From assembly GCA_030427585.1 (NCBI GenBank), contig JAUIBW010000013.1:1-64000 (forward strand): a stretch of DNA of 64,000 nucleotides, given 5' to 3'. Both the position numbers and the translations under genes were made by a program. Under the pieces are notes generated by a model, which saw only the letters and a list, made by a program, of their open reading frames with translations, had not been told where the DNA came from and did not search any database. The stretch's first letter is position 1; every line of letters begins with the position of its first letter. Below, one piece after another: positions 29,353-63,790 of the stretch. Source of the DNA: Bacteroidia bacterium. GTDB lineage: Bacteria; Bacteroidota; Bacteroidia; Flavobacteriales; Flavobacteriaceae.

Positions 29353-29425
29353 TGCTAAATTTAAGTTGATTTGTTGGTTGTGTGAATTATATCGTTCTTA
29401 TAGAACTTTTATAAAAGTTTTTTTG

Positions 29426-30031: not shown

Positions 30032-30116
30032 ATACTTTTTATCGCTTTTATAAATTTAATTAACAACACTTGTATACTTAAGCTTACCAATAATTTTAAA
30101 ATTACAATCTCTGTTC

Positions 30117-30785: not shown

Positions 30786-30839
30786 CGATGTTTTTTTACA
30801 AATTATTCCTTAGTATATCTACAAAAGTACTTCATATAC

Positions 30840-31079: not shown

Positions 31080-31089
31080 TATTGATTAT

Positions 31090-32586: not shown

Positions 32587-32595
32587 CTTTTTGAT

Positions 32596-33693
32596 TTAAT
32601 AAAAATGTCCATCTCTATTTAACATATTCGAATTTTCAAAATCGAGCTTAGTCTCATCATGTGCTAATCCTTTTTTTGTTACTCTATGGGTAAAAATAGT
32701 TCTATATCGTTTTGTTATAGTATTAGATAATTTGGTGTCATCTGTAAAAATGAATTTCGTTTTCTTTTGAATAAAATTCTCTATTAAAGCATCGATACAC
32801 AGGTCATAATTCTCCTCTTCTTTAACCAAAAAGTATTTAACATTAAACTCATTATAATTTATCACATAAGATAAAAAACCAATAATTTCATTTTCTTTTA
32901 TGATTTTAAGGTTATGAATATAAATATTATTACTGGTTCCTGTTTGTAATGATGTATATGGATGCTTTGTTGCAATTGGCGTTTGCATATACTGCATCAT
33001 ATTAATCTGCCAGTTTACATACTCCTTTGTTTTAAGAATCAGATCATTTTTACAAAGCGGATCTATAAACTCCCAGGTTGCATTGTCCAACCGGTTGATA
33101 TAATCATAAGAAAGTGTTTTAGTTCTTTTTCTAGCTTTAGGTCTATTTAGTAACCTAATACATGATGCTACCGTATTATCGATTCTATCCAGAACAAATT
33201 TAATTGATTTCAAAAACCGAAACCTTCCTATAAGTATAGATGCATCAAGGCTAAAAAAAATGGTATGCCTTAATCTTGATGCAATTACAGTAAAGGGTTG
33301 TTTTTCGTAAAACGTAGTGACATTTTCTGCATACGATTTTATGAGTATTTGTTTGCCCGTTAAATTAACAGCCTCGTTATAGATATAGGTTCCCAGAACT
33401 GTATCTTTATAATCTTTATGCACCCACCACGAGATCATCCAATATACTTTTGATGGTTCTGTGTTTCCGTTATTAAGCAAATCGGGAAACATAAAAACAA
33501 AAGAGATCATTTTTTCACCTTCATAACCAATAACTCCACAATAGTCCTCCTCTTCTATTCTCGAATTCGAAACTAACCATAATGCTTTACTTTTTGGTAA
33601 CGGGGTAAGATTTCCTTTCCAATAGGTATTTTTTTCTATACCTTCTCTAAGCATTTTTTTGGTTAAGGCTACTATATTTAAATTTTTATCCAT
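32596..33693 (-). CDS. Probable GNAT-fold acyltransferase partner of A1/ACP 1
   Basis: I do not recognise a specific family for this 365-residue cytoplasmic protein. It looks like a double-GNAT protein. The first half has CGVIGYEGEKMISFVFMFP and VYWMISWWVHKDYKDTVLGT, with a GNAT-like Gly-Thr turn before a helix. The second half has NLKIIKENEIIGFLSYVINY, the common substrate-side beta hairpin. It is 9 bases upstream of the adenylation gene and ends the stretch that begins with phosphoglycosyl transferase copy B. The obvious role is to transfer the ACP-bound aminoacyl group to an amino sugar, making an N-aminoacyl sugar. This is inference from context. Confidence 0.6.
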   Translation of the reverse strand: MDKNLNIVALTKKMLREGIEKNTYWKGNLTPLPKSKALWLVSNSRIEEEDYCGVIGYEGEKMISFVFMFPDLLNNGNTEPSKVYWMISWWVHKDYKDTVLGTYIYNEAVNLTGKQILIKSYAENVTTFYEKQPFTVIASRLRHTIFFSLDASILIGRFRFLKSIKFVLDRIDNTVASCIRLLNRPKARKRTKTLSYDYINRLDNATWEFIDPLCKNDLILKTKEYVNWQINMMQYMQTPIATKHPYTSLQTGTSNNIYIHNLKIIKENEIIGFLSYVINYNEFNVKYFLVKEEENYDLCIDALIENFIQKKTKFIFTDDTKLSNTITKRYRTIFTHRVTKKGLAHDETKLDFENSNMLNRDGHFY

Positions 33694-33715
33694 CTATTCT
33701 TCCTAAGAAATATAA

Positions 33716-34321
33716 CTAGTTTGTACCGTCAAAATATTCTGATGTCAGATCATTTGATAGGTTTACATCTTCTTTTTGTATTACTTTTTTTAATGTTAAT
33801 CCGATTATTTTTAAATCTAATAAAAAACTATAGTTTTCTACATACCAAACATCATATTCAAACTTTTTTTTCCAGGTAATAGAATTTCTTCCATTAACTT
33901 GGGCCCATCCTGTAATACCTGGTCTTACATTATGTCTCTTTTTTTGAACATCATTATACACAGGTAAATATTCTATGATCAAAGGACGAGGTCCTATCAG
34001 GGACATTTCTCCTAGTAATACATTAATTAATTGTGGAATTTCGTCTAAAGAAGTTTTTCTTACAAATGCTCCTACTTTGGTTATTCTATCCTTATCCGGT
34101 AATAAGTTTCCTTGTGCATCCTTTCTATCGTTCATCGTTTTAAACTTTATGATGCTAAAGATTTTTTCATTTTTACCCGGTCTTCTTTGAACGAAAAAAG
34201 GTTTACCCCAATTTGCAATAGCCAGAAAAAGAATCAATAGTATAAATACAGGTGAAATAAAGATCAGTAATAGTAGCGATATACTAAAATCAAGACTTCT
34301 TTTTATAAAAAATTTATACAC
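33716..34321 (-). CDS. PglC/WcaJ-type phosphoglycosyl transferase (copy B)
   Basis: The 201-residue monotopic transferase has the same plan as copy A: a re-entrant helix with Ser-Pro (LLLIFISPVFILLIL), FSIIKFKTMNDRK, a catalytic Asp-Glu in KTSLDEIPQLINVL with the normal proline, MSLIGPRPLIIEY and RPGITGWAQVNGRNSITW. The start is GTG at 34321, matching the N-terminus of copy A. It is the first gene of the A1/ACP 1/GNAT block, and a -7-like box lies about 50 bases upstream. Keeping two such transferases suggests two lipid-linked products, or one copy specialised for the modified sugar. Confidence 0.92.
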   Translation of the reverse strand: MYKFFIKRSLDFSISLLLLIFISPVFILLILFLAIANWGKPFFVQRRPGKNEKIFSIIKFKTMNDRKDAQGNLLPDKDRITKVGAFVRKTSLDEIPQLINVLLGEMSLIGPRPLIIEYLPVYNDVQKKRHNVRPGITGWAQVNGRNSITWKKKFEYDVWYVENYSFLLDLKIIGLTLKKVIQKEDVNLSNDLTSEYFDGTN

Positions 34322-46569: not shown

Positions 46570-47664
46570 TTATCCCCAATATAAATAGTACATAAAATAA
46601 GTAAACGAAAAATACACCAATACCACTTTACCTAACATAAAATGATGGTCCTTAAAAAATTTCTGTTTCAGGAAAGGATAAATAATGATTACTGCCATCA
46701 TAAACCATGATAAATAGGCAAATCTATTCGAGTAATTAGCTTTAATAACCAGAACCCAAAATCCATTACAAATCAAATAGGTGTTTAAGAGCTGATAAAA
46801 GAGTTTATCTTTAAATTGTTTTTTATAAATAAAATACCACCCGGCTACTATCGGAAATGAGCTATGAAATAAGAAATCCCATCGAAAACCTGTACTAGAA
46901 AAAGTACCTTCTGCGGCCTTAGATGTTAAATACCCTGATAATCTATCATCTGCAAATCCCATACTACTAAAAAGTGATATCCAAACTCCTCCCATAGCTA
47001 AGGATAATGGAATACACAAAAGCCATCCTTTGAGATACACTTTTGGGTTATTGTAAAAATATGTGGCAATAAATGCTAATACTGGTAAAAACAAAGTTTT
47101 ATGAAAAGCGATAGCACAAAGAAAAAATGCGGCCATCACTACTTTGTTTCTATGATAACTTACTCCCCACAAAAAAAGAGAACAAGCCGCTCCATTTCTC
47201 ATACCATTTACCCCATAGGTCCAAAATGAATAGGAAACGATAAACATCATAAAAGCGTAGTACCAATATTCATTAAAGAGTTGTTTAGAAATTCTGTATA
47301 AAGGAAATATGTATATAAAAGCACAAATAGTAAAGAAAGTATGGGCAGAAACCACATAAGCTAAGGTTTTCATGAAAATATGCCATGAATAATCTGCTCC
47401 AAACATAATCTCTCCCCCATTTTGATAATGCTGAAATGATCGCATATAATTAATCATATCACCAAACAAATAGGTAATAGGTCTTTGTCCTATATATAAG
47501 ATGATATAAGTAAGTAGAAGATATCCTGTGACATTAATAAAAATCAAATTCTTTTTATCGTCCATTTTCAAAACTCTGGTATGGAGTAGTGTAAATAGCA
47601 CTAGAAAGAGTGATAGATTAATATAAATCTTGTAATATATCCCTATTGGAATCCAATCAAACAT
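46570..47664 (-). CDS. EpsG-like polysaccharide polymerase (Wzy-type)
   Basis: The 364 residues contain about ten transmembrane helices with a large periplasmic loop, the topology of Wzy/EpsG polymerases that join flipped repeat units. Typical EpsG points are GDMINYMRSFQHYQNGGE and a conserved region around FWTYGVNGMRNGAACSLFLW. Wzy proteins are poorly conserved, so the call rests on topology and context. It is the only polymerase candidate in the window. The flippase is encoded at 60914 and the chain-length/export kinase at 14053, completing a Wzx/Wzy-type pathway. Confidence 0.8.
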   Translation of the reverse strand: MFDWIPIGIYYKIYINLSLFLVLFTLLHTRVLKMDDKKNLIFINVTGYLLLTYIILYIGQRPITYLFGDMINYMRSFQHYQNGGEIMFGADYSWHIFMKTLAYVVSAHTFFTICAFIYIFPLYRISKQLFNEYWYYAFMMFIVSYSFWTYGVNGMRNGAACSLFLWGVSYHRNKVVMAAFFLCAIAFHKTLFLPVLAFIATYFYNNPKVYLKGWLLCIPLSLAMGGVWISLFSSMGFADDRLSGYLTSKAAEGTFSSTGFRWDFLFHSSFPIVAGWYFIYKKQFKDKLFYQLLNTYLICNGFWVLVIKANYSNRFAYLSWFMMAVIIIYPFLKQKFFKDHHFMLGKVVLVYFSFTYFMYYLYWG

Positions 47665-47670
47665 TGTACA

Positions 47671-48591
47671 TTACTTCTTTTTATTTAAGAATATTAACTT
47701 ACATAAATTCTCTGTAAACTTTTTCCCTGCAAATTTATCTATATGGTGACCATCATAAGTCTCATACACCATATCCATTTTATTAAAATCGAAATACGGA
47801 ACTTGATTACTTTTTGATATAGAGTCTATCGTAGTATCGAATTTTGGGTAATATTTTTCTTCATATCCCAAATATTCTTTGCTTATAGGCATTCTTACCA
47901 AATACACATCTCCGTAATGGCCTAATTTTTTTATTAAAGTTACTAAGCTTTGTATTCGTACATCAGACACTTCAAAATTTCCCTGGTCCTTTAAGTATAA
48001 AGCGATCTGATTCTTTTTCCAATCTTCAAAAACTTGCTTATTCTTTGGTAGATTTGTTTCTTCTAACCAACCATCTTTATGTAAAGTAGAACTTTTTCTA
48101 AACATTCCTTTGAAATGAAAAAAAGAAAAATTCTTTACCAAGTATTCATAATTTGGATTCATATTTACAAAGTTCATATTATGAGGAGGTTGATCAATCT
48201 CTCGAAATTCTCCTTCCTCATTATTATAATCCTTGTGCGAGGTTAACATATCCGGAGTAATAGAAATAATAAAAATACCATGAGTCGATGTGGTATCTAA
48301 TTTTTTAAAGATGCTTTTGTTATATGGCGGTCCAATAAGAGCTTGCGCAATCGTAAAGCTATAGTTTAATATTGGGAGATTGTATCCTTTATCCTTAAAA
48401 TAGGCATTGATAACACTTGGCTGGATTCCTTGTAGGCTTCTAGAATCCCCTATGATCATCGACTTGGCCTTTGGAGTTGTAAACTTTTCATAAAAATAAT
48501 CCACATTACCACCATATTTAACCAGAACAATAGTAACTATCCCCAAACATATGATAAAGAAAAGACCTAACTTAAGTAAAAGTAATTTCAT
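47671..48591 (-). CDS. SGNH-like, DltD-like MBOAT partner (pair 4)
   Basis: The 306-residue protein has an N-terminal anchor (LKLGLFFIICLGIVTIVLV) and an outer SGNH domain. Block I is KSMIIGDSRSLQGIQPSVIN with intact GDS. The C-terminal pair is [14 protein letters not shown]. It is closely related to the pair 5 protein at 53962, sharing [18 protein letters not shown]. It lies six bases after an MBOAT gene that itself follows ACP 2, so it occupies the DltD position. In the Dlt system DltD takes the alanyl group from DltB to the teichoic acid. Here the acceptor would be a polysaccharide. Confidence 0.8.
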   Translation of the reverse strand: MKLLLLKLGLFFIICLGIVTIVLVKYGGNVDYFYEKFTTPKAKSMIIGDSRSLQGIQPSVINAYFKDKGYNLPILNYSFTIAQALIGPPYNKSIFKKLDTTSTHGIFIISITPDMLTSHKDYNNEEGEFREIDQPPHNMNFVNMNPNYEYLVKNFSFFHFKGMFRKSSTLHKDGWLEETNLPKNKQVFEDWKKNQIALYLKDQGNFEVSDVRIQSLVTLIKKLGHYGDVYLVRMPISKEYLGYEEKYYPKFDTTIDSISKSNQVPYFDFNKMDMVYETYDGHHIDKFAGKKFTENLCKLIFLNKKK

Positions 48592-48597
48592 GATTAT

Positions 48598-50043
48598 TTA
48601 AAATTGAAAATATATAAATGTATCCGAACTTCTCCCGAAAAACAAGATAAGTAAAAAGATGAATATGTATGATGACCATCGAAGGTAAACATTATAATTG
48701 CTTATTTCGAAATCATGTTTCTTCTCACGGTTGACCCATTCTACCAGCATAAAAAAACCAATCAAAGCGACTATCATTAAAGTATTAGCAGTAATATAGC
48801 TTGCCGGATACTCTATAATACTTGACGAAAAAATACCTTTGAAATAGTCCAATGCCATTGCAACACTATCCACCCTAAAAATCACATCTGTCATCATGAC
48901 CAAAACAAATAGTACCATCATTTTATAAGTTTCTTTAAAAGATGGAAACCATTTTCCCTTTGCCATGATATCTGATGTATTCATTGTACCAGAATATACC
49001 AAAGGAACAAAATAAATCCCATGAAGTAGTCCAAAAACAATAAATGTCCAATTAGCTCCATGCCAAAAGCCTACTAAAATAAAAGTAGCAATGATTGAAA
49101 TTACTAATCCTTCTTTTTGATACTTCCTAAGTGTAAATGATAAGGGGGTGAATACATAATCCATCATCCATGTAGTCAGAGAAATATGCCATTTTTTCCA
49201 AAAACCACTAATATTGGTTGAAAAAAACGGAGTTGCAAAATTACGTGTTAATTGTAACCCAAATAATTTAGATATTCCTATTGCCATATTTGAATACCCC
49301 GAAAAATCTGCATATATCTGTATTGCATAGAAAAATGCGCCTATTACCAATACACTTCCTGGTTTATCCTGGTAATTATTAAAAATAGGATTTGCAATAG
49401 CAGCGCAATTTTCTGCTACTACCACTTTGGTAAATAATCCCCATAATATTTGTCTAAACCCATCAACAGAAGTAGCATAAAAAAGTTCTCTTTTCTTTTG
49501 AATCTGCGGAATAAAGCTTCCTGCTCTTTCTATAGGTCCTGATAATATTTTTGGAAAAAATGCTATAAAAACAGAAAAATCAAGCAAATTGTTACTGGGT
49601 TCGATCTCTTCATTATACACGTCTAATAGATATCCCAATGTTTGAAAAGTAAAAAAACTAATCCCCAAAGGTAATAAGATAGAAAGTGTATTATATTCTA
49701 AATCAGCGCCAAAAACACTTATTATTTTATAAAATCCTTCGTAGAAAAAATTAAAATACTTAAAATATACCAGTAGACCGATATTAAATATTAACCCCAA
49801 ATTTAAAAGCGTTTTTTGTTTACTTTCTTTTAGAGTATTATGAATTTTTAATCCCAAATAGTAATTAATAAGAATACTTGCTATTAACAAAAAGAGAAAT
49901 CTCCAATCTGCCCAGGCGTAAAAAAATATGCTGGCCATTAGTAAAAGTATATTTTGGGCTACTGCTGTTTTTTTAAAAAACAGCCAGTATAGCACTAATA
50001 CAGGAATTAAAAAAACGACGAAATTAAATGAGTTAAAAATCAC
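48598..50043 (-). CDS. MBOAT family acyltransferase, DltB-like position (pair 4)
   Basis: The 481-residue membrane protein keeps FWKKWHISLTTWMMDYVFTP and the catalytic-type histidine in WHGANW (about 328), and ends in FIYFQF. It differs from the other four MBOATs here: the PLGG turn after the first histidine is replaced by TPLSFTLRKYQK, and the hallmark reads FPKILSGPIERA instead of FPQLVAGPIERA. It starts with GTG at 50043, ten bases after ACP 2, so it is the likely acceptor of the carrier-bound group. This suggests specialisation for ACP-delivered aminoacyl groups, as in DltB. Confidence 0.9.
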   Translation of the reverse strand: MIFNSFNFVVFLIPVLVLYWLFFKKTAVAQNILLLMASIFFYAWADWRFLFLLIASILINYYLGLKIHNTLKESKQKTLLNLGLIFNIGLLVYFKYFNFFYEGFYKIISVFGADLEYNTLSILLPLGISFFTFQTLGYLLDVYNEEIEPSNNLLDFSVFIAFFPKILSGPIERAGSFIPQIQKKRELFYATSVDGFRQILWGLFTKVVVAENCAAIANPIFNNYQDKPGSVLVIGAFFYAIQIYADFSGYSNMAIGISKLFGLQLTRNFATPFFSTNISGFWKKWHISLTTWMMDYVFTPLSFTLRKYQKEGLVISIIATFILVGFWHGANWTFIVFGLLHGIYFVPLVYSGTMNTSDIMAKGKWFPSFKETYKMMVLFVLVMMTDVIFRVDSVAMALDYFKGIFSSSIIEYPASYITANTLMIVALIGFFMLVEWVNREKKHDFEISNYNVYLRWSSYIFIFLLILFFGRSSDTFIYFQF

Positions 50044-50053
50044 GTTTTCTAAA

Positions 50054-50293
50054 TTAAATTTTACCTTGAATTACTGAGACAAGAGATCCCAAATTCTTTA
50101 ATTTATTTAAATCCCTAAGTTTAAATTTAATATCAAATTGTTCTTCAATTTTTGTGATGATCATCATATGAGATAGTGAATCCCAACCATCAACATCTTG
50201 TGCAGTCAATTCATCATTGGTCTCAAAATTACTATGTCCTAATACAGATTCGAGTGCTTCACTTATTTTTTCTTTAATCTCTGTGGTTTCCAT
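50054..50293 (-). CDS. Acyl/peptidyl carrier protein (ACP 2), DltC-like
   Basis: The 79-residue carrier protein has the phosphopantetheine serine at Ser39 in DVDGWDSLSHMM. It lies between adenylation gene A2 and the pair 4 MBOAT, the place that DltC holds in a dlt operon. The acidic helix around Ser39 would dock to both the adenylation enzyme and the MBOAT. It is a paralogue of ACP 1, with the same length and the same GHSNFETND/EHDNFQLAD region. A phosphopantetheinyl transferase from elsewhere in the genome would be needed. Confidence 0.92.
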   Translation of the reverse strand: METTEIKEKISEALESVLGHSNFETNDELTAQDVDGWDSLSHMMIITKIEEQFDIKFKLRDLNKLKNLGSLVSVIQGKI

Positions 50294-50327
50294 AAATATG
50301 GCTTTATGTATTTAGAATTATGTTTAA

Positions 50328-51809
50328 TTAAAATATTGTTGTCAATTCTTTTCTGTCAATTTTTCCGTTAACATTAAGGGGAAAAGTTTCCATAAATTTT
50401 ATCTGCGAAGGTATCATATATGCTGGCATTTTTGCTTTCATATATTCAGAAAGTTCGGTAAGGTCAAATTTTTCTGACTCTATTACCAATCCTATTTCGG
50501 TACTTCCCACTCCATTAGTGTATGCAACAGCTACTGCATTGATTTTATGCAATCCTTCTTTTGCATAGAGTTCGACTTCAGAAAGTTCTACACGATATCC
50601 ACCCTGTACTTTTGCTTGAAAATCTATTCTTCCCAAAAACATGATATCGCCATCAGCGTCTATATATGACAAATCTCCTGTTTTATAAAATCTAGTTTTT
50701 TTACCGTTATATTCGGTATAGAAAAATGCTTCTTCATTTTTCTCGGGATTCATCCAGTATCCCGGTGTTAATAAAGAGCCCGCCAGACATAGTTCTCCTT
50801 TTTTACCTGTTTCAAGAATCTCATTAGATTCATTTATGATTATGGTTTCAACGCCCTTCCATGGTTTTCCAATAGATACTACTCCATTATGTGTTTTCTT
50901 AGCGTCTTTATCATACGTATACCCTGTACAAAGCATTGTGCTTTCTGTTGGACCATACACATTCATTATTTTAGTATTTGGTAAGCGTTGCGCCCATTCT
51001 TCTGTTACATCTACCGGTAAGCCTTCTCCGCAAAACAAGCTATATTTCAAATAAGGAGAATCTATCTCATCAAAATACGGTCTTAAATAGTGTAAAATCG
51101 AAGGAACCATTAAGGCATATGATAATCTTTCGTCTTGTATTAACTCGAAAATATAACTGAACTTAATCTCATCTTTTGGAATGGTATATACCCTTGCTCC
51201 TTTAAGTACGGGAAGCATAAACGACATTACCGATACATCAAATGTTAAACCGAACATCTGCAAACATCTATCATTTTCATCTATTTGAATACCAAAATCA
51301 AAAAATGCATCGCAAAAGGCTATAAGATTAGAAAATGTAATGGGAACACCTTTAGGAATCCCAGTAGTTCCTGAAGTAAATAAGATATAGGCTATTGATT
51401 TATCTCGTACTTGTTTGGGTTCTAAATCATCAATATTTCCTTTTGCCATGGTCGAGGAAATAGTATTATAGTCTGGATATACAACTACATCAGAAGAATC
51501 TACTATTGATCTTATGTTAGTCTGTTTGATGATATTATCGTTTCGTTCTTCTGGGCTCTCTGGATCAAGAGGAACATATGATTTTCCTTCAAACCATATT
51601 GCGAAAATTGCTGCATACGTTTGTATATCATCATTTGCAATTAATCCAATATGAACCTCATTATCAGAAACTTTTTCCTGTATTATTTTTCGTATACCTG
51701 AAATTGACTCAGCTAAATCCTTATATGTATATTCTTGCTCATTAATAACAAAAGCAATACGATCCAGGTTTCTAGTAATGGAATGGCTAAGTGCTTGCTG
51801 CAAATTCAT
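50328..51809 (-). CDS. Stand-alone adenylation enzyme, DltA-like (A2)
   Basis: The 493-residue ANL enzyme has YILFTSGTTGIPKGVPIT, FDVSVMSFMLPVLKG, NVYGPTESTMLCTG, RFYKTGDLSYIDADGD and the catalytic C-terminal lysine in NGKIDRKEL. The aspartate of FDVS supports an amino-acid substrate. It is a single domain with no condensation or carrier part. ACP 2 follows 34 bases downstream, and A3 is 15 bases upstream, so two activating enzymes feed one visible carrier. Substrate choice would need a structure-based comparison with DltA and NRPS domains. Confidence 0.88.
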   Translation of the reverse strand: MNLQQALSHSITRNLDRIAFVINEQEYTYKDLAESISGIRKIIQEKVSDNEVHIGLIANDDIQTYAAIFAIWFEGKSYVPLDPESPEERNDNIIKQTNIRSIVDSSDVVVYPDYNTISSTMAKGNIDDLEPKQVRDKSIAYILFTSGTTGIPKGVPITFSNLIAFCDAFFDFGIQIDENDRCLQMFGLTFDVSVMSFMLPVLKGARVYTIPKDEIKFSYIFELIQDERLSYALMVPSILHYLRPYFDEIDSPYLKYSLFCGEGLPVDVTEEWAQRLPNTKIMNVYGPTESTMLCTGYTYDKDAKKTHNGVVSIGKPWKGVETIIINESNEILETGKKGELCLAGSLLTPGYWMNPEKNEEAFFYTEYNGKKTRFYKTGDLSYIDADGDIMFLGRIDFQAKVQGGYRVELSEVELYAKEGLHKINAVAVAYTNGVGSTEIGLVIESEKFDLTELSEYMKAKMPAYMIPSQIKFMETFPLNVNGKIDRKELTTIF

Positions 51810-51824
51810 TTTTTTACTATTTGT

Positions 51825-53312
51825 TTAACTAAATAATTCTTTTAATTTTTTTCTATCTGTTTTTCCATTAGTATTTAACGGAAAATTATCTACAAATCTA
51901 ATCTGAGTTGGGATCATGTAATGGGGTAATTTTGTTTTTAACTCCTCTAATAATTGATCTGTTTCAAATTTTTGAGATTCAATTACCAGTCCTATTTCTG
52001 TAGTATTCATAGCATTATCAAATGCTATAGCAACCACATTCATCTTATCTAAACTTGCTTTTGAATGAAATTCAATTTCGGATAATTCGACTCTAAATCC
52101 TTGGATTTTTGCTTGAAAATCTACTCTTCCTAAATATAAAATATCACCTTCTTCATCTACAGTACATAAATCTCCTGTTCGATAGAACCTTGTTTCTTTT
52201 CCTTTATAATCTTTAAAGAAAAAAGCTTCTTTATTTTTCTCTTCATTTTTCCAATACCCAGAAGTAAGTTGAACACCACTTAAACACAACTCTCCTTTTT
52301 CACCAGTCTTTACTTCATTATTATCATCATCTACAATAATTGTTGTAGTATCAAACATATCTTTTCCGATAGTCAAAACACCATTATGCGATTTATTACC
52401 CCCTTTTCTTTTATAGGTATAATCTGTACAAAATATGGTGCATTCTGTTGGGCCATACACATTTGCTATCGTTGCATTTGGCAAGCATTTACTCCATTCT
52501 TCGGTAACATCAAGAGGTAAAGCTTCTCCACAAAACAAACTGTATTTCATATCCGGACAATCTATTTCATCAAAATACGGCCTTAGGTAATGCAATATGG
52601 AAGGAACCATTAAGGCGAAGGTTAACTTATAATCTTCCATAAGTTCAAAAATATAGCTATACTTAATCTCATCTTTAGGGATAGTATAGATACATGCTCC
52701 TTTAAGTATTGGAGCCAAATATGAAAACACTGATAAATCAAATGTCAATTCAAACATTTGCAAACATCTGTCTGCATTAGTCAATTCATAGCCAAGTTTC
52801 CAAAATGCTTCTGTAAAACCTGATAGGCTATTAAATGTTATAGGAACTCCTTTTGGAGTACCCGTAGTTCCTGATGTAAAGAATATATATGCAAGATCTT
52901 CTTCTGATATATGATCTACCGGACATAAGTTAATCTCTGAAGCAGGTAATTTTTTAGTAAGTATTGTATTATAATTATTAAAAATTTTGTCTGTTGAAGA
53001 ATCTAAAATGGTTTTTATACCGGCCTGTTTAATTACAGTATGATTTCTATTAACCGGAAATTCTGGATTTAACGGGACATATGCTTTTCCTTCCATCCAC
53101 AATGTAATTATAGATGCATACGTTTCAATATCATCATTGGTTACTAATCCGATAATAACCTCTGTTTTTTCTACCGAAGTCTGAATTGCCTGTCGAATAT
53201 TAGAAACTACCTGAGCAAAATCCTTATAGCTATAATATTTGTTTCTAATACAGAAAGCATTATGATCATAATTATCTTCAATAGATTTTTGTATGTTAGA
53301 AATTAGGTTCAT
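51825..53312 (-). CDS. Stand-alone adenylation enzyme, DltA-like (A3)
   Basis: The 495-residue enzyme has YIFFTSGTTGTPKGVPIT, FDLSVFSYLAPILKG, NVYGPTECTIFCTD, RFYRTGDLCTVDEEGD and NGKTDRKKLK with the C-terminal lysine. FDLS is the exact form seen in DltA. It resembles A2 throughout (KYSLFCGEALPLDVTEEW against KYSLFCGEGLPVDVTEEW), so the two arose by duplication. Why both are kept is unclear: two substrates sharing ACP 2, or A3 serving another acceptor. The LbH acetyltransferase gene lies 47 bases upstream. Confidence 0.88.
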   Translation of the reverse strand: MNLISNIQKSIEDNYDHNAFCIRNKYYSYKDFAQVVSNIRQAIQTSVEKTEVIIGLVTNDDIETYASIITLWMEGKAYVPLNPEFPVNRNHTVIKQAGIKTILDSSTDKIFNNYNTILTKKLPASEINLCPVDHISEEDLAYIFFTSGTTGTPKGVPITFNSLSGFTEAFWKLGYELTNADRCLQMFELTFDLSVFSYLAPILKGACIYTIPKDEIKYSYIFELMEDYKLTFALMVPSILHYLRPYFDEIDCPDMKYSLFCGEALPLDVTEEWSKCLPNATIANVYGPTECTIFCTDYTYKRKGGNKSHNGVLTIGKDMFDTTTIIVDDDNNEVKTGEKGELCLSGVQLTSGYWKNEEKNKEAFFFKDYKGKETRFYRTGDLCTVDEEGDILYLGRVDFQAKIQGFRVELSEIEFHSKASLDKMNVVAIAFDNAMNTTEIGLVIESQKFETDQLLEELKTKLPHYMIPTQIRFVDNFPLNTNGKTDRKKLKELFS

Positions 53313-53359: not shown

Positions 53360-53932
53360 TTATACTCGTTTCCCATCTTTTTTTATAATTCGTGCAGGGT
53401 TTCCTACAACAACGCAGTTTTCAGGAACATCTTTTACCACTACAGCTCCGGCTCCTATTACGCTATTATTTCCGATTGTAATATCCCCAATAATGATTGC
53501 TCCAGTATTTACAGAAACATTATCTCCGATAGTTGGTCTTTTCCCTTCTATTTCTCCTACCGTCACCAAATGGTTTACATAAAAGTTTTCTCCAATAGAA
53601 TCGGCATTTAAAATTGTACAATAAGGATGTCCTGTAAGTACACCACCACCTAATTTAGTGTTAATATCAATTGTGAAATTAGATTGCTTTCTACAATAGA
53701 TATTAAGTACGTGAGAAAAAATACTTCGGTTTCTAAAGTAAAACAAGGTTCTAAAATCTGGAGAGTTTGTTAAAAATGTAAGTAGTAAAGAATATTTTCC
53801 TTTTTGTATTCCTTTTGCCTCGGCCCATCTTTTTATATCTTGATCAATACTACTTTGATTCTTACTAAATTTATACATTATTACATGTGGTAAGAGTAGT
53901 ATTTTATATAAAAAAGAAAATAAAGATCTCAT
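53360..53932 (-). CDS. Serine acetyltransferase-like left-handed beta-helix acyltransferase
   Basis: The 190-residue protein has an N-terminal helical region and a C-terminal hexapeptide-repeat beta-helix ([40 protein letters not shown]). The histidine needed for CoA-dependent acetyl transfer is in NHLVTVG. It resembles CysE-type and polysaccharide-locus acetyltransferases ([14 protein letters not shown] at the end). There is no cysteine-synthesis gene nearby, so it more likely O-acetylates a sugar in the cytoplasm. It is co-directional with the pair 5 genes upstream and A3 downstream. Confidence 0.85.
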
Positions 53933-53961: not shown

Positions 53962-54891
53962 CTATTGATTTGCGGATAAAATAGAATCTGCAAGTGCTTT
54001 GGTAAACAATTCTCCTCCTTTTTTATCAATATGGTGTCCATCATAATTGCTAAACTCCTTTAGTTTTGGATGTCTTGTGAAATTAAAATATTTAATACCA
54101 TTTGATATAGCGACTGAATCTATGAAATTATCGAATTCTGGGTAAAACTTATTTTCTATTTCTAAAATATCCAAATCTATTGGGCTCCTTACAAAAAAGA
54201 CATCGCCGTGCTCTTTTAAATCTTTTATTAAATCGTAGAAACTTTGTTTCCTAACATTAGACAGTTTGTAATAATCTAAAAAGTCTACAATCATATCTTT
54301 TTGAACCTTTTTTCTTGAGTTAAAAGAAAATTCATCTTTGCTTAGTTTCTTTCTTTCCATCCACCCATCTTTATGAAGTAGATAATTTGTTTTAAACACA
54401 TGTCTAAAGCTAAAAAGGTTAAGGTTACGAAGTATATACTCATAATTAGGGTTTACATCAACATAGAGCATATTATGAGGAGGTTGATCTTGTTCTCTAA
54501 ACTCACCTAAATCATCATTATAATCATCACCAGAGCAAAACATCCACGGTGTTAGGCTTAGTATGTATACTCCATTCTTAGATTCTTTATCTAATTTACG
54601 CAAAATACTTTTCCTATATGGAGGTCCCATAGGAGTTTGAGCAATGGTAAACGCATAATTATACACTGGTAATTCATAATCTTTACCACTTGATTTTATG
54701 GCTTTATTAAGGATTTCTGGTTGTATCCCTTGCATTGCCCGACTATCACCTAAAATCATAGATTTAGCTTTAGGTGTTGTAAATTTATTATAAAAGTGAT
54801 CTATATTTCCTCCATATTTTAGAAGTATAGCCGTTAGTATCACAAAACAAACAAACAAAAACAAACTTACTTTTTTTATATACTTTTTCAT
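53962..54891 (-). CDS. SGNH-like, DltD-like MBOAT partner (pair 5)
   Basis: The 309-residue protein has an N-terminal anchor ([20 protein letters not shown]) and the outer SGNH domain with [20 protein letters not shown] and [14 protein letters not shown], both intact. It is a near paralogue of the pair 4 SGNH protein. It lies five bases after the pair 5 MBOAT gene and 29 bases before the LbH acetyltransferase gene. By this resemblance it may also be used by the A2/A3/ACP 2 set, but its own MBOAT is of the standard type, so acetyl transfer is equally likely. Confidence 0.8.
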
Positions 54892-54896
54892 AGCGA

Positions 54897-56324
54897 CTAA
54901 AATTGGAAGTAAATAAATGAAGTTGAAGACTTACCAAAGAACAAAATGATTAAAAATAAAGTCATATATGATCCCCATCTTATATAAACAGGCCTATTAC
55001 CTATTGCTAATCCATGTTGTTCTTTTCTATTGATCCATTCGACTACTAATAAAATAATAATGACTGCTATCGAAATTTTATCCAAATTACCCCATGTATT
55101 TCCTTGAAAACTAAAAATTCTTTTGATGTATAAAAATGCATCTTCTATAGAATCGGCTCTAAAAAACACTCTAATAAAACAAGTCACTATAAAAGTTTCA
55201 AAAATGGCATATCCTTGCCTAAAAGAAGGTAAAAAACTATTCGCTGCTACAATCTCCAGGTTGCGGCGGTTTCTCTTGGATAACATTAAAGGAACATAAT
55301 ACAATGCATTAAGAAAGCCCCAAAATATAAATGTCCAATTTGCCCCATGCCAAAATCCACTAATAAGATAAATGATAAAAACATTACGGATCTTTTTATT
55401 GAGTCCTACTCTACTTCCTCCTAACGGAAAATATACATAGTCTTTAAACCAGTTAGTAAGAGACATATGCCATCTTCTGTAAAACTCTGCTATATCTCTC
55501 GCAAAATATGGGAAAGCAAAATTTTGTTTCAAATCAAAACCAAACAATCTTGCGCTTCCGATAGCAATATCCGAATACCCAGAAAAATCACCATATAACT
55601 GAAAAGCAAAGAAAATCATACCTACAAATAATTCTCCAGAAGAACTCATAGAAGGATCTGCAAAAGCCTGATCTACAAAAACTGCACAATTATCGGCAAC
55701 AACAACCTTTTTAAAAAATCCCCAAAGCATTTGTCGCATTCCATCTGCTGCCTTATCATACTCAAAAGTTCTTTTCTTTTGAAACTGCGGTAGCAAGTTA
55801 GTCGCTCTTTCTATTGGTCCGGCAACTAACTGAGGGAAGAAACTTACATATGCAAAAAATTGAACAATTGAATTTGAAGGTTCAATTTTATCTCTATATA
55901 CATCTATTGTATAACTAAGCGTTTGAAAGGTGTAAAAACTAATACCAACCGGTAAAATAATATGTAACGTTGTGTAATCTGCATGAAACCCAACAAGATT
56001 AAAAAGGTCAACCAGAGAATCTGCAAAAAAGTTAAAGTACTTAAAAAAGCCTAGTAACCCAATATTCATAACAAGACTAATCCCTACAAAAACCTTTTTT
56101 GTATTCTTCTTCTGAGAAGCCTTTATTTTTTTTGCTACCCAAAAATCTATTAATGAACTGGCGGCAATTAAAAACAAAAAACGCCAATCCCAACAACCGT
56201 AAAAGAAATAACTTATTATTAACAAATAAGTATTCTGAATTTTTAATGACTTTTTTGAAAGAAGCCAGTATATCGAAAAAACGATCGGTAAGAAAATTAA
56301 AAATATAACCGAGTTAAATATCAT
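54897..56324 (-). CDS. MBOAT family O-acyltransferase (pair 5)
   Basis: The 475-residue polytopic protein has FPQLVAGPIERATNL, RWHMSLTNWFKDYVYFPLGG, and the histidine in FWHGANW (about 326), and ends SFIYFQF. The start at 56324 (MIFNSVIFLIFLPIVFSIYW) agrees with the others. A 72-base AT-rich gap separates it from the GT4 at 56397. It belongs to the same group as the pairs 1-3 MBOATs by the PLGG turn. Together with the DltD-like gene downstream it probably transfers an acyl group to the exported polymer. Confidence 0.92.
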   Translation of the reverse strand: MIFNSVIFLIFLPIVFSIYWLLSKKSLKIQNTYLLIISYFFYGCWDWRFLFLIAASSLIDFWVAKKIKASQKKNTKKVFVGISLVMNIGLLGFFKYFNFFADSLVDLFNLVGFHADYTTLHIILPVGISFYTFQTLSYTIDVYRDKIEPSNSIVQFFAYVSFFPQLVAGPIERATNLLPQFQKKRTFEYDKAADGMRQMLWGFFKKVVVADNCAVFVDQAFADPSMSSSGELFVGMIFFAFQLYGDFSGYSDIAIGSARLFGFDLKQNFAFPYFARDIAEFYRRWHMSLTNWFKDYVYFPLGGSRVGLNKKIRNVFIIYLISGFWHGANWTFIFWGFLNALYYVPLMLSKRNRRNLEIVAANSFLPSFRQGYAIFETFIVTCFIRVFFRADSIEDAFLYIKRIFSFQGNTWGNLDKISIAVIIILLVVEWINRKEQHGLAIGNRPVYIRWGSYMTLFLIILFFGKSSTSFIYFQF

Positions 56325-58638: not shown

Positions 58639-59610
58639 TTATTTGTTTAACTGATTTCTTACCTTTTCTTTTAAAGCATTGGCTAAATCATGATGTTTTT
58701 CAAGATTCTTTACCATAGTATTATGATCTATTTTTCCATTTAAAGGAAAATTTGCTGTATACTCACCTGTTTTACTATCGATATCAATTCTATTAAATAG
58801 TTCTAAAATACCATCAAATCGACAAGAATCTACAAAACTGTCAAACCCATTAACGAAGATTACAGGAGTTCCCATAGCAAGACAGGGTAAAGCACAATGA
58901 ATTCTCGAAGTGATCACTAGCTTTGCCTTAGCATATTTATGTAAAAGCTCTTCTGCCATACTAAATTTCTCTTCATCGGAATATGTATTAGACGGAGGTT
59001 CTTGATTTATAAATTCTGCAGAAGCCAGTACTTCTTCGCTTATAAAATTCTTTAAATGTTTATTCTTTTTCCCTAATTGAAATGCAGTACCATTAAGGAT
59101 ATTTTTTACTGTAATTTTAGCATTATAGAATATTTTCTCGGGCCTTGGATAGCTATAAAGAGGATCTACAATATAAATGGTATCATCTCTTTCTGAATCA
59201 TCAACTTTGTATGAGTCTAAAGTTAGCGTTAGACAGCCTGTAAAATGAGCATCTATCCCTTTTGCTTTTAAAGTATCTGCAGTAAACTGATCTCTGCATC
59301 CAATAGGTTCATGTTTTTTTAAATACGCAATTCCTTTTTCGCTCAACATATGTGGAGCTGCTGTATTATTCATATGAAAAGACACAAATACTGGATCTAT
59401 ATTTTCTGATGGAACCCAATTATGAATATTATGAGTAAACCATCCATTCATTACCAGTTTAACAGGATCTCCTTTATAGTCAGCTAATTTTTCTCTATTT
59501 AAAAAAACATCAACTTGCGGTAAAAACTGTTTCGCAGCAAGGCTCTGAATATTGTCTCCAACATTAAAAAACCGCTTATTTTCATCATATTTAAGTAGTC
59601 CGTATTTCAT
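58639..59610 (-). CDS. Polysaccharide pyruvyl transferase family protein
   Basis: The 323-residue protein has the family hallmark SRIHCALPCLAMGTPVIFV with the conserved histidine near residue 230, and an N-terminal region with NVGDNIQSLAAKQFLPQVD. Family members (CsaB, WcaK, ExoV) move pyruvate from phosphoenolpyruvate to a sugar hydroxyl, giving an acidic ketal. The enzyme is cytoplasmic. It fits between the glycosyltransferases and the QueC-like gene (13-14 base gaps). Pyruvylation would add negative charge to the polymer. Confidence 0.9.
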   Translation of the reverse strand: MKYGLLKYDENKRFFNVGDNIQSLAAKQFLPQVDVFLNREKLADYKGDPVKLVMNGWFTHNIHNWVPSENIDPVFVSFHMNNTAAPHMLSEKGIAYLKKHEPIGCRDQFTADTLKAKGIDAHFTGCLTLTLDSYKVDDSERDDTIYIVDPLYSYPRPEKIFYNAKITVKNILNGTAFQLGKKNKHLKNFISEEVLASAEFINQEPPSNTYSDEEKFSMAEELLHKYAKAKLVITSRIHCALPCLAMGTPVIFVNGFDSFVDSCRFDGILELFNRIDIDSKTGEYTANFPLNGKIDHNTMVKNLEKHHDLANALKEKVRNQLNK

Positions 59611-59623
59611 TAGTCAATATTTT

Positions 59624-60907
59624 TTAGTGCATTATTTTTTTATATAATCTTCTTAACCAGGGAAATTTATTTCGTATAATAAACTTGATCCTATGCTTTA
59701 TTTTATTGGGATTATTAATTTTCTGTTCTAAGAGATCATCTATTTTGCCTTCTCTTATTTTATTAATTTGTATTGTCTCTTCTTCCTTATCATTAAAGAC
59801 ATAAAAGTCATCCACTTTTTTTGCCTTTTCCATCAGTTCCCACCAGAAATACTTAACTCCTTTACTGGCAGAACCTATTTTTAATACTGTATAAAATTTG
59901 TCATATACTTTTTCATCTACATTAAAACCATAATCATTAGGATTTTTCCCATTTAAAATTAAACCTAAGATTGTTCTAAAGCATTTCTCACAGTTACTGC
60001 AATTAAACTCTGTTCTTAACTCAGAATAGCATACTCTTAATTTAAATTTAGCATTAGTTTTAGTAGCGAACTCTGCTATCGAATCGACTTTGTCTTGCCT
60101 TTTAAGTTCGTATCCATCATGAAATACTTTTATACCACCTCCCCATGTAATTTTATGATCAATTTCTGGCGTAGATCCCCAATCAATATCAATATGATCT
60201 GTATATGAAGATGCGATATAAATAGCATTATAGTTCTTTATATAAGAAATGGGAGCTACAGACCCTACAAGTGCCAAACCATGCTGTACTTTTCCCCACC
60301 ATCCTATATCTTTTAATAGTAGTTCTACCTGGTATGTATAGAAGTCACGTAGATTTGTTTCTATAAATTCTTTATCGTTGTTATTTAATAAAGCTTCACT
60401 TTCTATAAAACTGGTAAAATCATTCCATTGTGTTTTGTCGTCAATAGTAATATCTGCACCATGAATAGTTACCAAATCTGGCTTTTTATCATAAATTCTT
60501 ATATAGGTTGCATATGCATCTACTCCCCCACTAAATAACATTGCAGGTTGAGTTCCTTCGATACTATTTTTTACTAATTTTCCTACAATTAGTTTTCCAT
60601 TAAGAGTATATGACGAATCTCTCTTTGCAAATTCTTCTTTTATTATTTCCTGAGCATGAAAAAAATCTTCATCTACTTCATCTACTTCAATAACAAATCC
60701 AGCAAACCATGCAATAGGAAGTATATTTGATAAAAACGGGATTACTGCAATACTATCGGGAATACCACTTACATCCATTTGATAGCTTACATATAATGAT
60801 TGCTCCTCTACAAAAAACTTCTGAACCTGAGCATCGGCAACATAATCGTAAATGATTTTCTTTCCTTCTTCTGAATAGGATATATTATGAAGTTTTACTT
60901 TTTCCAT
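59624..60907 (-). CDS. PP-loop protein with QueC-like cysteine motif, unknown function
   Basis: I do not recognise a named family for this 427-residue cytoplasmic protein. Residues 122-135 form a PP-loop, MLFSGGVDAYATY, where the usual Ser after Asp is Ala. PP-loop enzymes adenylate a substrate with ATP. Further on, CYSELRTEFNCSNCEKC gives C-x9-C-x2-C-x2-C, close to the zinc site of QueC, which makes the nitrile of preQ0. The N-terminal 110 residues are not QueC-like. It lies between pyruvyltransferase and flippase genes, with 13- and 6-base gaps, so a role in modifying a carboxylated or amidated sugar is possible. This is inference. Confidence 0.6.
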   Translation of the reverse strand: MEKVKLHNISYSEEGKKIIYDYVADAQVQKFFVEEQSLYVSYQMDVSGIPDSIAVIPFLSNILPIAWFAGFVIEVDEVDEDFFHAQEIIKEEFAKRDSSYTLNGKLIVGKLVKNSIEGTQPAMLFSGGVDAYATYIRIYDKKPDLVTIHGADITIDDKTQWNDFTSFIESEALLNNNDKEFIETNLRDFYTYQVELLLKDIGWWGKVQHGLALVGSVAPISYIKNYNAIYIASSYTDHIDIDWGSTPEIDHKITWGGGIKVFHDGYELKRQDKVDSIAEFATKTNAKFKLRVCYSELRTEFNCSNCEKCFRTILGLILNGKNPNDYGFNVDEKVYDKFYTVLKIGSASKGVKYFWWELMEKAKKVDDFYVFNDKEEETIQINKIREGKIDDLLEQKINNPNKIKHRIKFIIRNKFPWLRRLYKKIMH

Positions 60908-60913
60908 TGTAGT

Positions 60914-62455
60914 TTATTTTCGTTTTAATAGTGAAGCAATAGGTTTGGTAAATAATTGCTTCTCATATTCTAATAATCCAAAAAAGTACATTATCACTGC
61001 AAATACAATAGTATATGCACTTCCTTTTAGTATAAAATTTCCCCATCCATTACCCTGGATATAATTTATAAAATACCCTATTATCATCACTACTAGTATC
61101 ACTATGAGTGTTTTATAAAACAATTCTCTAAAAAATCGAAAAATATTTAAACCAATTTTTTTATGATAATAAAAATTCATCACATTTTGTACAATTAACC
61201 ATCCTGCAACCAATCCAGAGATCATTCCTAGCGCGCTATATTTTACTGCGAGAAATCCTCCTAGTATTGTACCCAGAATCATAAACACAAGATATAGGAT
61301 AGCTTTAAAAGATAATTTATTCTTAGCTTCGAGAATAGAATTTCCAAATGCTTGCAATAATGGTAACGTATATCCTATCATAATAATTAATGCAATACTG
61401 TATATTTCTCTGCATTCTTGCATATTATACGTACCATCGGCTTCTAATTCTGCGCCTCCTACCCATAAATTGATAAATTGTTCTCCATACAGTATAAAAG
61501 CTCCTAATACATACATTAACATAATAAAAGACAACCTACCTAATTTGATCATCATATCGGTTAACTCTTCTCCTGTTGCATTTCTTACTGTCATTTGCGT
61601 TGCTCTAGGTAAAAAAACACTGGATATCGCAGTAGAAAAAGCACCGTAATATGTTCCCAGGGCTATTCCGATTCCATAAACACCCAAAACCTTTGGTACA
61701 CTCATAGCCCCCAGCACCCAGCTACCAGATTTCCACTGTAGCATTCCTACAATAGAAAACACAAAAATCCAACTAGAATATTTTAATATTTGTTTAATAA
61801 ATGCTTTAGAGAGCTTATGCAATTTAAATCGTACATTAAGTTTTTTAATCACATAATAGGCAGATACCGAAATGGTAAGAATATTAAATATCGAATCGAC
61901 TATGACCAACGATATAGCACGACCTCCTAAAAAAAGTACAGCTACTACGGTCACTGATCTTAGAAGATACCTTATTACACTAACAGATTCTGGAAATACA
62001 AATGCTTCGTATCCTTTACAGATTCCTGTAAAGATCATCCCTGGAAGTTGAATTGCCAGATTAAAAATCAAAATAACAAACATTATTTTTGCTATTTTGA
62101 GTTCTTCGATGCTAAACTTGGTAAAATATGAGTCTATAAAGAAATAGAAGATAATGCCGAAAATAATAACGAGCAGAGAAATAACAAAATATAATATTCC
62201 TATTGTTGCTAAAAAATTTTCTTCTCCTTTTCTATCTTTTTCTGCTCTATATTTAGCTATAAACCGAACAACGGTATTGGTAAGTCCAAAATCCAAAAGA
62301 GCAATAGTACCTATTAATGCTCCAATTGCATTAAATATACCATATTCATCCTTCCCCAAATAACTAACGATCAAAGGTGTAATTACAATACCTATAACAT
62401 TAGTAAGGAAAATCTTTAGATAAGTTAGTAATGCCCCTTTTTTTAATTGACTCAA
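60914..62455 (-). CDS. Wzx-type polysaccharide flippase (MOP superfamily)
   Basis: The 513-residue protein has about 12-14 transmembrane helices and no soluble domain. It starts LLTYLKIFLTNVIGIVITPL, with SYLGKDEYGIFNAIGALIGT, the classical PST/Wzx N-terminus, and has RFIAKYRAEKDRKGEENFLA at the first large loop. Wzx moves the finished lipid-linked repeat across the inner membrane. It starts with TTG at 62455, as no ATG is available near the conserved start. It pairs functionally with the EpsG-like polymerase at 46570. Its length and topology are normal. Confidence 0.9.
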   Translation of the reverse strand: MSQLKKGALLTYLKIFLTNVIGIVITPLIVSYLGKDEYGIFNAIGALIGTIALLDFGLTNTVVRFIAKYRAEKDRKGEENFLATIGILYFVISLLVIIFGIIFYFFIDSYFTKFSIEELKIAKIMFVILIFNLAIQLPGMIFTGICKGYEAFVFPESVSVIRYLLRSVTVVAVLFLGGRAISLVIVDSIFNILTISVSAYYVIKKLNVRFKLHKLSKAFIKQILKYSSWIFVFSIVGMLQWKSGSWVLGAMSVPKVLGVYGIGIALGTYYGAFSTAISSVFLPRATQMTVRNATGEELTDMMIKLGRLSFIMLMYVLGAFILYGEQFINLWVGGAELEADGTYNMQECREIYSIALIIMIGYTLPLLQAFGNSILEAKNKLSFKAILYLVFMILGTILGGFLAVKYSALGMISGLVAGWLIVQNVMNFYYHKKIGLNIFRFFRELFYKTLIVILVVMIIGYFINYIQGNGWGNFILKGSAYTIVFAVIMYFFGLLEYEKQLFTKPIASLLKRK

Positions 62456-62506: not shown

Positions 62507-63790
62507 TTATAATCGCCCGTGAACCTTTTCTTTAAGTATTCCTTTAACATCATACAGAACACCTTTTGGTGAAAGCATAGATTTTAAATCTATATCTAAA
62601 AATTCTTTATGCGCAACTGTTAATACCACTGCATCGTATTTTTTTTTTGGTAAATTAATTGTAGTTTCCAGATTATATTCATGCATTACTTCTTCAGGGT
62701 TTGCCCATGGATCATATACAGTAACATCGGTTCCAAAATCACCTAATTGTCTAATAACATCAACGGCTCTTGTATTACGTACATCGGGGCAATTTTCTTT
62801 AAATGTCACACCAAGTATTAATACTTTAGCACCTTTTATATGAATATCATGTTTTACCATAAGTTTAATTACTTCTGATGATACATACTGTCCCATACTA
62901 TCATTTAATCTACGTCCTGCTAAGATAATTTCTGGATGATATCCAAATTCTTGTGCACGTTGAGCCAGGTAATATGGATCAACACCAATACAATGACCAC
63001 CTACCAGTCCTGGTTTAAAAGGCAGAAAATTCCATTTGGTTCCCGCTGCTTCTAATACGTCATTAGTATCTATATTCATTAGGTTAAAGATCTTAGCTAA
63101 CTCATTAACAAAAGCAATATTGATATCTCTCTGCGAGTTTTCGATAACTTTTGCCGCTTCTGCCACTTTTATGGTTGGGGCAAGGTGAGTTCCTGCCTTA
63201 ATAATAGAAGCATATAAATTATCTACTTTTTCCCCAACTTCTGGAGTAGATCCTGCAGTAACTTTCAGGATTTTCTCGACTGTGTGTTTTTTATCTCCCG
63301 GATTGATTCGTTCTGGTGAGTATCCTGCAAAAAAGTCTTCATTAAATTTTAGCCCACTTACTTGTTCCAGTACAGGAACACATTCTTCTTCGGTAACTCC
63401 CGGATATACAGTAGATTCATAAATAACAATATCTCCTTTTTTTAATACCTTACCAACAGCTTCACTAGACTTATATAAAGGTGTAAGATCTGGTCTGTTA
63501 TTTTTATCTACTGGGGTAGGCACCGTGATTACATAATAATTACAATCTTTTATATCTGCTATATCAGAAGAACAATAAAGTCCGTTTTCATCCAAATCAC
63601 TATTATCTTTTAATACTGATTTTAATAAATCGTCTTCTACTTCTAAGGTAGAATCGGTTCCCGAACGTAATTCTTTGATTCTTTTTTCATTGATATCAAA
63701 ACCTATTACTGGATATTTCGTTGCAAATAATCTGGCTAGCGGTAATCCTACATATCCTAATCCAATGATGGCAATCTTAATATTTTGCAT
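62507..63790 (-). CDS. UDP-HexNAc 6-dehydrogenase, TviB/WbpA-like
   Basis: The 427-residue enzyme oxidises C6 of a UDP-sugar with two NAD+. It has an N-terminal NAD site AIIGLGYVGLPLARLF, YESTVYPGVTEEECVP, SPERINPGDKKHT, and the catalytic Cys267 in LVGGHCIGVDPYYLA, followed by LGVTFKENCPDVRNT. The ERINPGDK version is typical of enzymes acting on UDP-GlcNAc or UDP-GalNAc rather than UDP-glucose. The epimerase gene 31 bases upstream is the normal partner in Vi-like pathways. The product would be a uronic acid of N-acetylhexosamine, an acidic repeat component. Confidence 0.9.
   Translation of the reverse strand: MQNIKIAIIGLGYVGLPLARLFATKYPVIGFDINEKRIKELRSGTDSTLEVEDDLLKSVLKDNSDLDENGLYCSSDIADIKDCNYYVITVPTPVDKNNRPDLTPLYKSSEAVGKVLKKGDIVIYESTVYPGVTEEECVPVLEQVSGLKFNEDFFAGYSPERINPGDKKHTVEKILKVTAGSTPEVGEKVDNLYASIIKAGTHLAPTIKVAEAAKVIENSQRDINIAFVNELAKIFNLMNIDTNDVLEAAGTKWNFLPFKPGLVGGHCIGVDPYYLAQRAQEFGYHPEIILAGRRLNDSMGQYVSSEVIKLMVKHDIHIKGAKVLILGVTFKENCPDVRNTRAVDVIRQLGDFGTDVTVYDPWANPEEVMHEYNLETTINLPKKKYDAVVLTVAHKEFLDIDLKSMLSPKGVLYDVKGILKEKVHGRL

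Follow-up and report, generated by a model that had tools for sequence, protein, structure and literature searches.

The first 64,000 nucleotides of contig JAUIBW010000013.1 (assembly GCA_030427585.1, a marine Bacteroidia bacterium of the Flavobacteriaceae), here called the window, carry at positions 47671-53312 five consecutive minus-strand open reading frames (ORFs) that together make up a candidate polysaccharide decoration cassette. An initial annotation had recognised these five genes, which the ORFs and, for four of them, Pfam bear out; the matches to AMP-binding (twice), PP-binding and MBOAT each exceed the gathering cut-off. From upstream to downstream, the cassette comprises A2 (51825-53312; 495 aa), a stand-alone amino-acid adenylation (A) enzyme (AMP-binding, E 3.1e-59); A1 (50328-51809; 493 aa), a second A enzyme; ACP1 (50054-50293; 79 aa), a carrier protein (PP-binding, 28.4 bits against a cut-off of 20.8); MBOAT_d (48598-50043; 481 aa, GTG start), a membrane O-acyltransferase; and SGNH_d (47671-48591; 306 aa), a predicted periplasmic SGNH transferase with an N-terminal helix, assigned by motifs and predicted fold. 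The intergenic gaps are 6, 10, 34 and 15 bp, counted from SGNH_d towards A2. The motifs listed in that annotation are also present: A1 contains FDVS and A2 FDLS, the phosphopantetheine site of ACP1 is Ser39 in GWDSLSHM, the His of MBOAT_d lies within FWHGANW, and SGNH_d carries GDS, accompanied by a C-terminal DGHH. The C-terminus of MBOAT_d is FIYFQF (codons 48601-48618, minus strand), a form of the acyl-shuttle motif FxYxxF that all 16 aligned orthologues share unchanged.

SGNH_d has no Pfam or NCBIfam match at E<=0.001 and no notable sequence match in the PDB. Its predicted fold (pLDDT 75) matches SGNH proteins, with Foldseek placing 8gr2 (Cj0610c of C. jejuni; E 1.2e-4) and 8tlb (PatB; 3.9e-4) ahead of DltD (6pfx_A; rank 30, E 3.6e-3), all of them weak matches. 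For MBOAT_d (model pLDDT 83), the top Foldseek match is DltB (8jem_A; E 1.4e-14, TM 0.66/0.75), which is also the only family found by a PDB sequence search; the same search places DltA among the best matches of A1 and A2. The best PDB match of ACP1 is 2lml, which we take to be GmACP3 of Geobacter and not a DltC. A1 and A2 are 57% identical. The placement of A1 outside the Aquimarina A2 group speaks against a recent tandem duplication, which was therefore rejected; a quick tree groups A1 with Ferruginibacter (SH-aLRT 91, not starred). Core motif A8 is longer by one Gly (QGGYRVE) in all three A1 copies (window, L044 and L045). Another doubled-A case is seen in L092, L093 and L194 (Ignavibacteria and one other genome), where tandem A enzymes accompany tandem GNAT genes.

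Conservation and an optional insertion site

Close relatives of ACP1 (72-100% identical) occur in 20 of 63 genomes of the same genus, most likely Aquimarina, the present one included. The A enzyme, carrier, MBOAT and SGNH genes are kept together in all 19 other orthologous loci, so the cassette is not a chance assembly. The doubled A gene recurs in only 2 of the 19 loci; of the two A enzymes, it is A2 that has orthologues in the genus. In the window, the cassette is bordered by genes for an EpsC-like hexapeptide acyltransferase (53360-53932, minus strand; 96 bits with the EpsC model, cut-off 150) and an EpsG-family protein, a probable polymerase (46570-47664, minus strand; Pfam EpsG), and it sits between EpsC and EpsG in 13 of the 19 loci as well.

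For comparison, the neighbouring GT2 gene was located in 43 genomes (61 searched; 6 more distant GT2 matches were left out), and 17 loci without the carrier were examined. EpsG is present in all 17, and in 13 of them the site is empty, with EpsC directly adjoining EpsG. One further locus (L266) has an MBOAT/SGNH pair of the Gly-Gly (GG) type described below at the cassette site and another (L259) has such a pair close by, while in L262 and L263 a glycosyltransferase adjoins EpsG and EpsC is absent. In two genomes (G017 and G023), the site holds carrier, FkbH, SGNH and MBOAT genes in place of the cassette (FkbH assigned by motif, with Pfam FkbH_N for one protein). As empty, GG-type and FkbH-type versions occur at the same site, it is, judged from gene arrangement, a decoration slot that is optional and takes interchangeable modules. 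The EpsC-like enzyme was considered as a cassette part, since its gene adjoins the cassette in 19 loci, and rejected, since it is also present in 14 of the 17 loci that lack the cassette; it belongs to the exopolysaccharide (EPS) backbone.

Probable carrier docking on the membrane acyltransferase

On the cytoplasmic helix HC, residues P300-L301-S302-F303 of MBOAT_d (codons 49135-49146, minus strand) align with the PLGG of MBOAT_c, another MBOAT encoded in the window, of the GG type. DltB has Val305-Ile306 at the GG position (R303-L-V305-I306), and its helix-HC residues Met302, Val305, Ile306 and Met309 contact the carrier DltC (PMC11035591; published accounts are cited here and below from the parts of their text that were available). 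Among 107 aligned MBOATs from all loci, GG is found at this position in 72 of 75 without a linked carrier gene versus 1 of 32 that are carrier-linked. Four rows (L074, L075, L088 and L094) were re-labelled as carrier-linked by hand; before, the counts were 72 of 79 versus 1 of 28. Duplicates (L162-L191) and 16 named Aquimarina loci had been removed from this set, and an earlier tally of MBOAT loci that predates the thinning counts some genes twice.

Because the GG pattern was noticed on these first data, a second sample was taken, consisting of the best 30 loci among 383 Pseudomonadota genomes (6 non-GG and 24 GG). All 6 non-GG loci but 12 of the 24 GG loci were examined, up to the same width, and 4 of 6 versus 0 of 12 have a carrier gene nearby (Fisher p 0.005). 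The carrier is on the same strand in L303, L305 and L307 and on the opposite strand in L304, without which p becomes 0.025. Carrier linkage requires 4 changes on a carefully built tree of 60 MBOATs, compared with a mean of 17.0 after shuffling, and non-GG goes with a carrier in all three independent pairs. There, the group that holds MBOAT_d also contains MBOATs linked to FkbH and others linked to A enzymes (85/98, not starred). A single origin of the carrier-linked MBOATs was rejected on this tree (AU test p 1.1e-9; long branches present), which omits ten MBOAT_d orthologues, roughly half of the rows without a carrier, and L075, L116, L118 and L119, and treats L077_11371 as not linked. The helix-HC signature is new evidence, drawn from sequence comparison, which suggests that the carrier feeds MBOAT_d.

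Cargo, target and relation to known systems

The pocket letters of the A enzymes read DLFMLCVIF in A2 and DVMMLCVML in A1. All 59 A rows, A1 and A2 among them, keep the Asp of amino-acid A domains, and all 23 Aquimarina cassette A enzymes have a Cys at the position of the DltA Cys. In DltA, Leu, Met and Cys line the cavity for the methyl group of D-alanine (D-Ala), and selection of the D form is due to the Cys (PMC8972799). The full set of letters (DLM..C) is found in 4 of the 23 Aquimarina enzymes and in 4 of 8 from other cassettes with a carrier and an MBOAT. ACP1 probably receives an amino acid, with D-Ala perhaps as the best single guess, ahead of Gly or other small amino acids. We do not claim D-Ala as the settled substrate, and three observations speak against doing so. 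Neither A1 (DVM..C) nor A2 (DLF..C) keeps both Leu and Met, Ser or Thr replaces the Cys in 3 of the 8 A enzymes of non-Aquimarina carrier and MBOAT cassettes, and the same Cys is present, as aligned, in module 2 of LgrA, which we take to load Gly, so that the Cys is no proof of D-Ala. In Segatella copri, a capsule locus on a plasmid links the gene of a 41% identical A enzyme to those of an alanine racemase, a carrier and an AAC(3)-like protein.

In sister cassettes, the A and MBOAT genes are separated by a GNAT gene (L083, L089 and L095 by Pfam, others by profile), or by a formyltransferase plus a GNAT gene (L082), and the amino group may therefore be capped on the carrier elsewhere. The five genes of the window cassette include neither a GNAT nor a formyltransferase. 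Adjacency of carrier and MBOAT also recurs with other loaders. At L077 (4615-11370), carrier, FkbH, MaoC and SDR genes lie beside an MBOAT/SGNH pair, and a carrier-bound glycerate-type group may be tailored there before transfer. At L076 (6785-8780), a carrier accompanies an FkbH-motif gene with no MBOAT within the 14 kb examined, and this loader pair therefore occurs in other settings too. In L208 and L209, from two Bacteroidota genomes, a carrier and an AMP-binding-like protein of 572-577 aa, far from the A family, precede the MBOAT. The A family itself was found in 5 of 395 Bacteroidota genomes at E<=1e-105, the present one included (three candidates scored per genome). A carrier adjoins the MBOAT in 3 of 56 MBOAT-centred Bacteroidota loci, where the carrier form is a minority.

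The initial annotation saw in the cassette a complete Dlt gene set in the functional order of the dlt operon. The logic of that proposal, with an amino-acid-type A enzyme, carrier, MBOAT and SGNH protein, is supported, the pocket Asp and Cys being kept, but membership of Dlt does not follow. A1 and A2 score 279 and 286 bits with the DltA model TIGR01734 (cut-off 559.85) and 296 and 300 bits with the subfamily model PRK04813 (cut-off 476), MBOAT_d scores 175 bits with the DltB model (cut-off 375) and ACP1 20.4 bits with the DltC model (cut-off 68). No separate DltX was found, the cassette gaps of 6-34 bp being too small and the shuttle motif sitting on the MBOAT C-terminus. The gene order is A-A-C-B-D as against dlt(X)ABCD, and agrees with the order of action only. 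MBOAT_d is PatA-like, with about 45% identity to MBOAT_c and 23-24% to DltB (fold alignment). The cassette thus likely works like the Dlt system of Gram-positives (dltXABCD), which D-alanylates teichoic acids and with which it shares its four functions, a predicted Tyr-to-Ser relay, the pocket residues and a non-GG carrier-docking helix, but it fuses the DltX motif to the MBOAT, draws carrier and MBOAT from other lineages and would act on a target other than teichoic acid.

Among Gram-negative MBOAT/SGNH systems, which also include O-acetylation of the AlgI type, PatA/PatB resembles the cassette in two features that were both found here, namely a C-terminal FxYxxF and an adjacent separate SGNH protein; the modelled SGNH_d fold likewise appears nearest to Cj0610c/PatB. 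The cassette differs, judging from gene content and the helix-HC signature, in that it encodes a carrier and a loader and has S-F in place of GG. Fused-motif (FxYxxF) MBOAT/SGNH pathways are described in the available part of a 2025 account as lacking a carrier and using acyl-coenzyme A (acyl-CoA) (PMC12148441). AlmEFG, which glycylates lipid A in Vibrio cholerae (PMC3783018, PMC12930378), also pairs an A enzyme and a carrier in a Gram-negative, for a small amino acid and an envelope glycolipid. However, AlmG is LPLAT-type and the system has no MBOAT or SGNH protein, whereas the cassette transferases have MBOAT and SGNH folds. Dlt-like genes in Gram-negatives, compared by published description only, comprise dltBAC plus dltD of Dickeya, with the target left unidentified (PMC3544676, PMC5541007), and dra of Bordetella pertussis, with D-Ala on a surface component (PMC4448142). 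Two loci from the order of Burkholderia have a short MBOAT (384 and 375 aa) beside an adenylation gene, also without Gly-Gly at helix HC (read by eye). The frame just upstream of the MBOAT ends in FVYQQF or FQYQQF, a DltX-like tail that is separate there and fused in MBOAT_d, and the carrier profile found no carrier gene in either locus. A closer relative of the cassette among the named Gram-negative dlt operons was sought and rejected: the DltB model matched 0 of 394 at E<=1e-60 in the order of a Pseudoalteromonas genome and 2 of 349, neither above the cut-off, in that of a Burkholderia genome. On whether such systems had been described, which the initial annotation could not tell, Gram-negative Dlt-like systems are in print, while no description of the form with carrier and fused shuttle was found in the literature searched, most subscription papers being outside its scope.

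The genes around the cassette likely make an acidic Wzx-type EPS, given the presence of a UDP-sugar dehydrogenase (62507-63790; Pfam PF03721/PF00984/PF03720) and a pyruvyl transferase (58639-59610; PF04230). The same locus encodes a Wzx-type flippase (60914-62455; PF01943), a backbone protein without Pfam match (59624-60907), Wzc-like (14053-16413; Wzz/GNVR/AAA_31) and Wza-like (16421-17209; Poly_export/SLBB) export proteins, all on the minus strand, and several glycosyltransferases. An exported polysaccharide had been named as the likely target, and this predicted locus together with the optional insert supports it. Beside the cassette lies a GG-type MBOAT and SGNH pair (53962-56324, minus strand; 54897-56324 and 53962-54891, respectively; by Pfam and alignment), probably an acyl-CoA user and as such an in-locus contrast to the cassette. 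Besides MBOAT_d, the window has four MBOAT genes with an SGNH-like neighbour, none with an adjacent carrier.

The window also holds a second A enzyme and carrier pair, A3 (31090-32586; 50% identical to A1) and ACP2 (30843-31085), which is found in most of Aquimarina, judged by its carrier. It is flanked by PglC- and PglD-like genes (27109-34321), with FemAB/GNAT-like genes beyond (24808-27068), and the A3 pocket (DFVMSGYVY) is without the Cys. This region possibly serves the aminoacylation of an amino sugar. A 365-aa protein (32596-33693) without Pfam or NCBIfam match is conserved beside A3 in the genus. Elsewhere in the same genome (G000 contig C51), an open frame of 4555 aa resembles a nonribosomal peptide synthetase, with four A-domain matches.

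Proposed mechanism, alternatives and significance

We consider it fairly probable that the five genes serve to decorate an exported acidic polysaccharide, as an optional cassette that depends on its carrier. From the gene set, its linkage, the motifs, the docking-site signature and the optional insertion site, all legible in the DNA itself, we infer the chemical steps, the amino-acid substrate and the EPS target as follows. A2, and perhaps A1, would use ATP to activate a small amino acid and attach it through a thioester bond to the phosphopantetheine arm of ACP1. ACP1 would then dock on helix HC of MBOAT_d, where a hydrophobic residue replaces the Gly-Gly of acyl-CoA-type relatives, and feed the aminoacyl group into the MBOAT tunnel. 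The next acceptor would be the Tyr in the FIYFQF C-terminus of MBOAT_d itself, which would stand in for a separate DltX microprotein, and SGNH_d would take the group onto its Ser and esterify an EPS hydroxyl, yielding a partly zwitterionic polymer.

Several observations sit uneasily with this proposal. The cassette lies on the other side of EpsC in 6 of the 19 loci, and the fold match of SGNH_d is weak (TM 0.36-0.42). The first count of the GG signature used the same data that had revealed it, and its rows are related to each other. L077 has a GG MBOAT near a carrier, with an SGNH-like gene in between, and three non-GG MBOATs (L116, L118 and L244) have no carrier, as is the case for the non-GG loci L306 and L308 of the second sample. 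The three independent pairs give a sign test p of 0.25, a number of pairs that cannot reach significance.

The same machine could handle another cargo, such as a non-amino (hydroxy or short) acid or an amino acid with a capped amino group, which would leave an acyl ester without positive charge. Two Aquimarina genomes have FkbH loaders in this locus instead of an A enzyme, and such loaders also occur elsewhere; the MBOAT/SGNH pair is thus not restricted to amino acids, and the GNAT and formyltransferase genes of the sister cassettes point the same way. Every A row nevertheless keeps the Asp that binds the alpha-amino group, the window cassette has neither tailoring gene, and the nearby EpsC-like acyltransferase is also present in most loci without the cassette, which makes us regard another cargo as unlikely. 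Less likely still is that the genes are unrelated neighbours, with the A enzymes and ACP1 serving some other job, for example aminoacylation of a sugar precursor, and the MBOAT/SGNH pair acting as an acetyl-CoA-dependent O-acetylase. MBOAT-less pairs of A enzyme and carrier do exist, as A3/ACP2 by the PglD-like enzymes and the Segatella locus with its AAC(3)-like protein and racemase illustrate. Yet the unbroken linkage in the 19 loci, the helix-HC signature with its second-sample test, the adjacency of carrier and MBOAT under other loaders and the clustering of carrier-linked MBOATs on the tree all argue against mere proximity. Transfer of a genuine Dlt operon from a Gram-positive, to place D-Ala on some surface polymer, would account for the four activities and for the PDB searches, which link MBOAT_d to DltB only and A1/A2 to DltA among the best. 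Given the low model scores, the lack of a detectable DltX, the different gene order, the greater identity of MBOAT_d to a carrier-less MBOAT of its own window than to DltB, and a carrier whose best PDB match is not a DltC, this origin is already largely refuted and appears highly improbable.

With the decoration cassette as the preferred interpretation, what is new is the combination of two known designs, carrier and fused shuttle, as Gram-negative Dlt-like systems were already known from Dickeya, Bordetella and AlmEFG. The 2025 account sets Dlt, with a carrier and a separate DltX, apart from the rest, with acyl-CoA and a fused motif (PMC12148441, available part). The cassette joins both halves, and this division is therefore not strict. 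The helix-HC signature would offer a cheap sequence test for polysaccharide acylases with carrier-borne cargo, which may add groups other than acetyl. What the Dlt-like system of Dickeya modifies is called unidentified in the available text (PMC3544676); with empty-site, acetyl-type and FkbH-type versions in one genus, the target question for Gram-negative Dlt-like systems becomes testable by comparing polymers. More broadly, we lean slightly towards the existence of a carrier-dependent, fused-shuttle MBOAT/SGNH branch across Bacteroidota and Pseudomonadota, marked by GG loss on helix HC, with more than one origin and interchangeable loaders. If so, A enzymes would load amino acids and FkbH proteins glycerate-type groups, GNAT, formyltransferase, SDR and MaoC enzymes would tailor the carrier-bound group, and loader swaps at one optional site would write many different esters on exported polysaccharides.

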